From assembly GCA_035697485.1 (NCBI GenBank), contig DASSCU010000017.1, positions 62,001-126,000 of the forward strand: a stretch of DNA of 64,000 bases. The letters run 5' to 3'. Both the position numbers and the translations under genes were made by a program. A model generated the notes under the pieces. The model made no database searches, was not told where the DNA came from, and worked only from the letters and a program-made list of their open reading frames with translations. This DNA comes from Actinomycetota bacterium. Its GTDB lineage: Bacteria; Actinomycetota; UBA4738; HRBIN12. Position 1 is the stretch's first letter; the number at the start of each line of letters is the position of its first letter. This document shows, piece by piece, positions 25,722 to 28,015 of this stretch.

Positions 25722-25749
25722 TTGACAGCACAGGAGGCTTCTTTAAACT
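25722..25749 (+). promoter_or_regulatory. Promoter of the ilv-leu operon
   Basis: A consensus TTGACA (25722-25727) and TAAACT (25744-25749) are spaced by 16 bp. This is the best sigma-70-type promoter in the window. The predicted start falls at about 25753-25757, at the first codon(s) of the leader peptide, so the leader peptide is translated from a nearly leaderless RNA. Confidence 0.7.
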
Positions 25750-25752
25750 GTC

Positions 25753-25812
25753 ATGACCATGTTCAGCGAGGACTCGATCACTCGGCGCACGACCCTCGTA
25801 CTTATTTCTTAG
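25753..25812 (+). CDS. ilv operon leader peptide (attenuation)
   Basis: ATG 25753 encodes MTMFSEDSITRRTTLVLIS and stops with TAG at 25810-25812; a second in-frame ATG at 25759 is the alternative start. The final codons include Leu-Val-Leu-Ile (CTC GTA CTT ATT), among them GTA, CTT and ATT, which are rare in this GC-rich genome and would make stalling sensitive to charged tRNA levels. A terminator follows 40 bases later. This is a textbook attenuator leader for branched-chain amino acid synthesis. Confidence 0.8.
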   Translation: MTMFSEDSITRRTTLVLIS

Positions 25813-25875
25813 GCGCGGCCAGGCCCAGGAGGCCTGCTGACCGCGCCGGACGCCCCCGCAGCCGCGGGGGTTTTT
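25813..25875 (+). terminator. ilv attenuator: pause hairpin and Rho-independent terminator
   Basis: A first hairpin pairs GCGCGG (25813-25818) with CCGCGC (25841-25846) and CAGGCC (25820-25825) with GGCCTG (25831-25836). It is followed by a terminator stem CCCCCGC (25853-25859) / GCGGGGG (25864-25870) and five T residues (25871-25875). Stalling in the leader peptide would disturb the first hairpin and alter terminator formation. Confidence 0.75.
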
Positions 25876-25943: not shown

Positions 25944-26261
25944 ATGCGGTACGAGTTCGAGCGGGACGGCACCGTCGTCGCCAGCGTGCTGTGGGAGGGT
26001 CCCGGCCAGGTGAGCGTCGAGTTGGCCGAGCCCTCGACGCGCGCCGTCGTCGACCGCTACCTGTCCTCTGACGTGGTCTATCTGGGCTCGGGTTTCGACT
26101 TCGGCGCAGAGCAGGAGCAGGACGTGTTGCAGATGCGCCGGCGTGACTGGACCCCATGGGAGTTCGAGCGCGCCTGCCGAAACCTAGCGCACCGTTTGCA
26201 GGCGCACGTGCGCCGGGTCGAGACCGGTCCGGTCGAGGCGAGAGGGGCAGCGGCGCGATGA
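25944..26261 (+). CDS. Small conserved hypothetical protein translationally coupled to ilvB
   Basis: A 105-residue acidic soluble protein between the attenuator and ilvB. ATG 25944 has AAGGAGAG upstream, and its stop overlaps the ilvB ATG (ATGA). The sequence is strand-rich at first ([18 protein letters not shown], then [20 protein letters not shown]) and ends in a helix ([18 protein letters not shown]). No domain is recognised. Its position makes it a candidate accessory or regulatory protein of branched-chain amino acid synthesis, but this is only inference. Confidence 0.75.
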
Positions 26262-28015
26262 CCGGCTCGAAGATGTCGGGCGCCGACGCGCTGCTGAAGG
26301 CGCTCGAGCAGGAAGGCGTCGACACGGTCTTCGGCATTCCCGGCGGCGCGAGCATGCCGATCTACGACCCGCTCGTCGACCGGTCGCCGATCCGCCACAT
26401 CCTGTGCCGCCACGAGCAGGGCGCGGGCCACGCTGCCGAGGGCTACGCGTGGGCGACCGGCAAGGTCGGTGTCTGCATGGCGACGAGTGGCCCGGGCGCG
26501 ACGAACCTGGTCACGCCGCTCGCCGACGCGAAGATGGACTCCGTACCGATCGTGGCGATCACCGGTCAGGTGCCGACGCCCGTCGTGGGCAACGATGCCT
26601 TCCAGGAGGCCGACATCACTGGCATCACGATGCCGGTGACGAAGCACAACTTCCTGGTGAAGGACCCGGCCGACATCGTGGCGACCGTGCGCGAGGCGTT
26701 CCACATCGCCTCGACTGGGCGACCCGGTCCCGTGTTGATCGATCTTCCGAAGGACGTGCTGCTCGCGGATACGACGTACCGGTGGCACGACAACGTGACG
26801 CTGCCCGGGTACAAGCCGACGACGAAAGGTAACCAGCGACAGGTCGTCGAGGCCGTGAAGATGATCCTGCGGGCGAAGAAGCCCGTGCTGTACGTGGGCG
26901 GCGGCGTGATCAAGGCCGACGCGCACCAGGAGCTCTTCGACCTCGCCACGACCGGACAGCTGCCGGTCGTGACGACGCTGATGGCTCGCGGGGTGTTCCC
27001 CGACTCGAACGAGCTCTGCCTCGGCATGCCGGGCATGCACGGCAACTACACGGCCGTCACCGCGATGCAGAAGTCCGACCTGCTGGTCGCGCTCGGAGCG
27101 CGATTCGACGACCGTGTCACGGGAAAGCTCGCGGCCTTCGCACCGCATGCGAAGGTGATCCACGTCGACATCGATCCCGCCGAGATCGGCAAGAACCGCG
27201 TGGCCGACGTGCCGATCGTGGGCGACTGTAAGGACGTGATCGGCAAGCTCGCCGCCGAGCTGCACAAGCGTCAGGACGAGGCGGGCGGACCGCCCGACCG
27301 TTCCGCGTGGCTGGGGCAGCTGCGCGGGTGGCAGGACGAGTACCCGTACCGCTATCCGACGGACGACGGGAAGTTGAAGCCGCAGTACTGCGTCGAGCGG
27401 CTGCGCGCGCTCGCCGACGACGACACGATCTGCGTGTCGGGGGTCGGCCAGCACCAGATGTACGCATCGCAGTACTGGCGGTTCGAGCATCCGCGGAAGT
27501 GGATCAACTCAGGCGGGCTCGGCACGATGGGCTTCGCCGTGCCGGCCGCCATGGGCGCCAAGGTCGGCAGGCCCGAGGCCCGCGTCGTCGCGATCGACGG
27601 CGACGGCTGCTTCCAGATGACCGCGCAGGAGCTCGCCACGAGCGCGACCGAGCAGATCCCGTTCGTGACGGCGATCCTGAACAACGGATACCTCGGCATG
27701 GTGCGCCAGTGGCAGGAGCTGTTCTTCGACGAGCGGTACTCGGGCGTGTGGCTCGACCCGAACGTGCCCGACTACGTGAAGCTCGCCGAGGCCTACGGGG
27801 CGGTCGGCCTGCGCGTGGAGTCCACCGACGAGGTCGACACCGTGATCGAGAAGGCGTACTCGATCACGGACCGGTCGGTGGTGATCGACTTCCGGGTCGA
27901 CCCGGGCGAGATGGTGTTCCCGATGGTGCCCTCGGGCGCCTCGAACGACGACATCATCGTCGGGCCCGAGAGCATCCAGTCCACAACCGACCCCGGGGAG
28001 GCTCCGATCGCATGA
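26258..28015 (+). CDS. ilvB: Acetolactate synthase, large (catalytic) subunit
   Basis: ThDP enzyme making 2-acetolactate or 2-aceto-2-hydroxybutyrate, the first common step to valine, leucine and isoleucine. The 585-residue length is normal. Visible are the ThDP-activating Glu in [16 protein letters not shown], the FAD-domain segment [20 protein letters not shown], and the ThDP/Mg motif from [12 protein letters not shown] to ILNN. Its ATG overlaps the upstream small gene and its stop overlaps ilvN (ATGA at both ends), giving tight stoichiometric coupling. Confidence 0.97.

Follow-up and report, generated by a model that had tools for sequence, protein, structure and literature searches.

The ilvB gene in the window, i.e., the 64-kb stretch of DNA that was analysed, is preceded by an attenuator-like element, the observation of which is confirmed. 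That expression is controlled by attenuation in general at this ilvB leader is very probable. More specifically, the element is proposed to be a ribosome-controlled transcription attenuator of the ilvB operon that senses charged Leu, Val and Ile tRNAs; this reading includes blocking of the terminator by the first hairpin, and it is favoured with some reserve. Steric terminator blocking by this hairpin, taken on its own, is put forward more tentatively. The layout, its conservation, the near-leaderless spacing, the codon choice and the absence of strand exchange by folding are directly supported.

Promoter, leader ORF, hairpin 1 and terminator follow each other within 154 bases (25722–25875; Table 1). 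All elements listed in the preliminary description, i.e., a promoter, a leader with the codons CTC GTA CTT ATT, a first hairpin and a terminator with a T-run, were located again at their positions. The promoter, with a spacer of 16 nt between TTGACA and TAAACT, is the sole match to TTGACA-N15–19-TAnnnT in the window when both strands are scanned. The encoded leader peptide ends in Thr-Thr-Leu-Val-Leu-Ile-Ser. The Rfam 15 covariance models gave zero matches at the gathering score in the window.

Table 1. Elements of the ilvB attenuator and the adjoining genes in the window.
Feature	Position	Strand	Basis or remark
-35 element TTGACA	25722..25727	+	kept in 14/14 family loci
-10 element TAAACT	25744..25749	+	family consensus TACACT
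Predicted transcript start	25755..25757	+	spacing argument; best guess A25756
Leader ORF MFSEDSITRRTTLVLIS and stop	25759..25812	+	17 codons + TAG
Control codons CTC GTA CTT ATT (Leu-Val-Leu-Ile)	25795..25806	+	CTCGTACTTAT invariant in family; CTC 25795, GTA 25798, CTT 25801, ATT 25804, then TCT, TAG
Leader stop TAG	25810..25812	+	stop-codon counts over 67 loci
Hairpin 1, GGCGCGG...CCGCGCC	25812..25847	+	folding, -24.5 kcal/mol; starts on the last base of the stop codon
Intrinsic terminator hairpin	25852..25871	+	folding, -16.9 kcal/mol
T-run of terminator	25871..25875	+	sequence
Small ORF, 105 aa, between attenuator and ilvB	25944..26261	+	conserved in family
ilvB, acetolactate synthase large subunit, controlled gene	26258..28015	+	Pfam TPP_enzyme N, M and C domains

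Conservation of the element was assessed by searching ilvB in 17 genomes of the same family, which resulted in 14 loci with readable upstream DNA (the window and 13 further) and an ilvB identity of 72–100%. Promoter, leader, CTCGTACTTAT, stop codon, hairpin 1 and terminator are kept in all 14 loci amid differing flanks, which argues that the layout is not due to chance, and the attenuator is invariably positioned 240–530 bases 5′ of ilvB. Each of these loci has an identical CTCGTACTTAT, after which come Y, three free bases and TAG-GCGCG. The preliminary description had staked its claim on the presence of the leader codons in close relatives, and the alignment of the ilvB upstream regions indeed reveals them there. 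Most relatives have ATC as the Ile control codon where the window has ATT, so the fixed codons are only CTC-GTA-CTT. In another family of the same order, locus L150 encodes MSGNQVVLASLLVLVLIT followed by a stop codon, with an equal layout but with GTC as the Val codon. Of 10 genomes from other families of this order, several of them incomplete, only two gave a close ilvB match (E <= 1e-150), so the gene may have been lost there or missed by the assembly.

3′ of ilvB, ORFs are present that resemble ilvN, ilvC, leuA and the gene for a 3-isopropylmalate dehydrogenase, named by sequence resemblance. In the window, the small ORF and ilvB overlap in ATGA. This ORF separates attenuator and ilvB in 13 of the 14 family loci, being missing from L014; its protein, which begins with MRYEFERDG, has neither a Pfam nor an NCBIfam match, and the structure model of this protein (mean pLDDT 68) gave no significant fold match in the PDB. 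The same genome additionally encodes a distant ilvB paralog with 32% identity (L002; G000:C49:130739-132313), and the same motif search detected no such attenuator in the 1.5 kb upstream of it.

The distance between the -10 element and the leader ATG is 9 nt in 13 family loci and 10 nt in the remaining one (L011), and the base 7 nt past the -10 element is a purine in 13 of the 14. In S. lividans, the gap between the -10 element and the transcription start is on average 6.3 nt, with 88.7% of the gaps at 5–7 nt (PMC8079986). Combined with the fixed spacing, these gaps point to a 5′ UTR of about 3–4 nt, typically RCC-AUG, which is a well-supported prediction. The earlier proposal that transcription starts within a few bases of the leader ATG is thus backed, as a prediction, by conserved spacing. 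The second ATG, at 25759, is most likely the true start of the leader; the in-frame ATG at 25753 is less likely as it lies only 3 nt past the -10 element and is found solely in the window and in L004. A conserved Shine–Dalgarno region was not found among the family leaders. The window does contain an AGGAGG (25732–25737), 15 nt 5′ of the ATG at 25753, from which the leader could be translated if a longer transcript came from an upstream promoter. This is highly improbable: the motif is too far away at 15 nt, it is not kept in relatives, in which the spacing between -10 element and ATG is fixed, and it falls between the -35 and -10 elements of the window's sole consensus promoter.

Outside the family, the promoter-like signal at leaderless spacing is weaker than inside. 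A strict TAnnnT test placed 11 of 56 non-family loci at leaderless spacing vs. 0–3 in control intervals, and the profile aligned on the leader start is enriched in A at -12 and in T at -8. The TAnnnT result lends modest support to leaderless starts in these loci.

According to the usage in five ORFs of the window, GTA accounts for 4% of the Val codons, CTT for 1% of the Leu codons and ATT for 3% of the Ile codons. The share of GTA among Val codons in the leader runs is 82% in the family and 68% in other loci, compared to 3–4% in genes; for CTT among Leu codons, these shares are 50% and 27%, compared to 8% in ilvB genes and 1% in genes of the window. Given the codon usage of the window, the chance of obtaining CTC-GTA-CTT among synonymous Leu-Val-Leu codons is approximately 0.0002, which indicates that the codon choice is selected. 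The rarity of GTA, CTT and ATT that had been suggested earlier therefore applies to all three codons in the window, but for ATT it is not conserved, as relatives mostly use ATC. A similar bias concerns the stop codon: among the 67 loci with a readable ilvB stop, the leader ends in TAG in 56, vs. TGA as the stop of ilvB in 62. A rare stop codon could lengthen ribosome dwell, and in attenuation theory, release from the stop codon or dwell of the ribosome there determines basal readthrough (PMC1183508). Alternatively, TAG is used because its G is the first base of hairpin 1.

To survey the phylum, ilvB loci were collected from public genome contigs and same-phylum genomes, of which 70, family included, have a branched-chain leader and a terminator detectable by rule. 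In 69 loci, hairpin 1 starts between -3 and +1 nt relative to the end of the stop codon, and in 68 it ends 0–5 nt 5′ of the terminator; in the window this gap is 4 nt. Both positions together with a stability <= -11 kcal/mol are found in 66 of the 70 loci, compared to 13% of shuffled spacers, with the restriction that the loci are related and a binomial p overstates their independence. In every family locus, hairpin 1 exceeds the terminator in stability (median -28.1 vs. -16.8 kcal/mol), and its outer stem is invariant, hence there is no covariation support for it. In Streptomyces-like and LVVIG-type loci, the stop codon falls inside hairpin 1; the terminator is close by here too, and the two structures have no bases in common. 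A small gap alone is not diagnostic, since upstream structures lie near the terminator in the E. coli trp and his folds too.

Most loci in the range L032–L092, from Acidimicrobiia-labelled and related MAGs, have GTA-rich branched-chain leaders before ilvB, often with a Thr-stop end. The ilvB gene and leader of L046, a record titled Bifidobacterium breve, are nearly identical to those of L043, an Acidimicrobiia MAG, and the record name is therefore probably wrong. Actinobacterial-type leaders are also present in L034 (Acidobacteriota) and L044 (Thermoanaerobacterales).

The folding check for a competing antiterminator that had been called for earlier was carried out on transcripts ending just before the 3′ arm of the terminator, with the edge of the ribosome set for each control codon and the pairing probability of the terminator 5′ arm as readout. 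In the E. coli thr, leu, trp, his and ilv controls, this arm is sequestered at ~0.50–0.90 at most stalled positions, and for thr, his and ilv the sequestration drops once the ribosome advances. By this test, which the five E. coli attenuators pass, a strand-exchange antiterminator was not found in the 70 actinobacterial loci, the window included; being static, the folding misses kinetic intermediates. Mean sequestration is 0.36 in the family and 0.21 in other loci, and the residual pairing in the window consists of local helices of two to four bases. Once the ribosome is placed at the stop codon, sequestration in the actinobacterial loci moreover rises on average, which is the opposite of the classical direction displayed by the E. 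coli controls. The equilibrium probability of the terminator was dropped as evidence, given that it is likewise ~1 for the E. coli attenuators. Two candidate pairings were rejected. Pairing of CUCGUAC in the leader with GUACGAG at the 5′ end of the small ORF is broken in L015, and L014 lacks the ORF and retains the codons; pairing between the 3′ arms of hairpin 1 and terminator is not conserved and has the wrong polarity.

A classical strand-exchange attenuator, with a kinetic antiterminator missed by static folding, is nevertheless the most serious rival, be it an unlikely one. Such a structure could, e.g., join the 5′ arms of the two hairpins, G-rich in hairpin 1 and C-rich in the terminator, once the base of hairpin 1 has been opened by a ribosome on CTT or ATT. 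In the family loci L006, L015, L016 and L014, hairpin 1 is indeed opened by a ribosome placed on the final control codons, its G-rich arm becomes partly available to the terminator, and the terminator 5′ arm is sequestered at 0.5–0.8. Strand-sharing, mutually exclusive structures are also assumed in the published models of M. tuberculosis ilvB1 (PMC13236596) and Corynebacterium ilvB-II. However, strand exchange is weak or absent in the window and in most of the 70 loci, and it is not conserved.

The preferred reading is that of a ribosome-controlled hairpin next to the terminator, for which the following course of events is proposed. Transcription would start 3–4 nt before the leader ATG, and ribosomes would load on the 5′ end of the RNA independently of a Shine–Dalgarno region, after which the ribosome would follow RNA polymerase closely. 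When amino acids are ample, the ribosome would reach the TAG and cover the 5′ arm of hairpin 1, presumably melting this hairpin and holding it open, so that the terminator could close and transcription would end. During shortage, the ribosome would stall on CTC-GTA-CTT-ATT and hairpin 1 would form. Being more stable than the terminator and only 4 nt away, it could keep the base of the latter from closing in the RNA exit channel, in which case the polymerase would read into the operon. Stalling and its polarity are modelled on M. tuberculosis ilvB1. If that polarity holds, intact hairpin 1 favours readthrough, as hairpin 1 is the only structure that differs between the stalled position and the stop codon; its position at the base of the terminator suggests steric blocking. 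Blocking in the exit channel is proposed from what is generally known of polymerase structure. The extension to a phylum-wide class, i.e., actinobacterial ilvB attenuators that use no base-pairing antiterminator and in which a wedged hairpin blocks the terminator sterically unless melted by a ribosome dwelling at UAG, is more doubtful still.

Known systems share several of these elements. M. tuberculosis ilvB1NC has an LVVI leader ORF, including GUA, and a hairpin followed by an intrinsic terminator. Stalling on the codon run there leads to readthrough, and replacing LVVI by AAAA abolishes induction (PMC13236596); codon-dependent induction has thus been demonstrated experimentally for that leader. 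In the M. tuberculosis-like leaders studied here (LVVIG[RK]RV), the stop codon is found further 3′ than in the window. That homologous leader also bears on an improbable alternative, in which hairpin 1 acts only as a pause hairpin to keep polymerase and ribosome in step, the terminator level is fixed and regulation occurs elsewhere. Folding reveals no antiterminator, and changes of leader codons in S. coelicolor ilvB reportedly made no difference (cited in PMC1262725), which also speaks against the preferred reading. On the other hand, a fixed terminator leaves the strongly selected control codons and the near-leaderless spacing unexplained, and the M. tuberculosis leader is codon-dependent.

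The Streptomyces ilvL of ilvBHC (S. lividans IlvL, MRTRILVLGKRVG) resembles the element in its leaderless-type leader, its ILVL codons including CTCGTACTT, and its hairpin directly before a T-run terminator 5′ of ilvB; loci L130 and L132 encode exactly this S. lividans peptide. Hairpin 1 encloses the stop codon in Streptomyces, whereas in the window it starts at this codon. IlvL was mapped as leaderless in S. lividans (PMC8079986), in contrast to the predicted 5′ UTR of ~3–4 nt in the window, which compares to 0–3 nt for the leaderless IlvL type. The branched-chain codon run and the terminator 5′ of ilvB that characterise the IlvL type are both present. The leaderless or near-leaderless variant that the preliminary description had put forward agrees with the predicted spacing, but is not novel, as a leaderless ilv leader was already known in Actinomycetota.

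The ilvB-II motif of Corynebacterium, described in 2023 (PMC10272879), and C. glutamicum ilvBNC have a branched-chain leader of 15–17 codons, two hairpins and a terminal U-run in common with the window. For C. glutamicum, the title of the original study speaks of leader peptide formation without a ribosome-binding site (Morbach 2000, cited in PMC4046766). P1 of ilvB-II overlaps most of the leader ORF, whereas hairpin 1 of the window begins at the stop codon, and the strand-exchange antiterminator proposed there between the P1 loop and P2 was not found by folding in the window. With the E. coli trp, his, thr, leu and ilv attenuators, the element would share the principle that the position of the ribosome on control codons decides termination, and it has both a control-codon leader and a terminator before the first gene. 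In E. coli, however, the terminator has a strand in common with a 2:3 antiterminator, and none of these leaders is leaderless; such an exchange is absent from the folds of the window.

Candidate branched-chain leaders and terminators before ilvB were noted in Corynebacterium, Mycobacterium and Streptomyces in 2005, when their mode of regulation was called unclear (PMC1262725). The window is a well-conserved member of this known type in poorly studied actinobacteria, and its variant feature is an abutting, non-overlapping hairpin pair, for which folding found no strand-exchange antiterminator. It is a genuine switch that is long established in this phylum, and similar ones are known. The packing of stop codon, hairpin and terminator, the preference for UAG and GUA, and the fact that no strand exchange was found provide a concrete model that is testable in vitro. 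M. tuberculosis ilvB1 is governed by a leader of the same general type, and the model, if true, would represent a second physical way of building a ribosome-controlled terminator switch.
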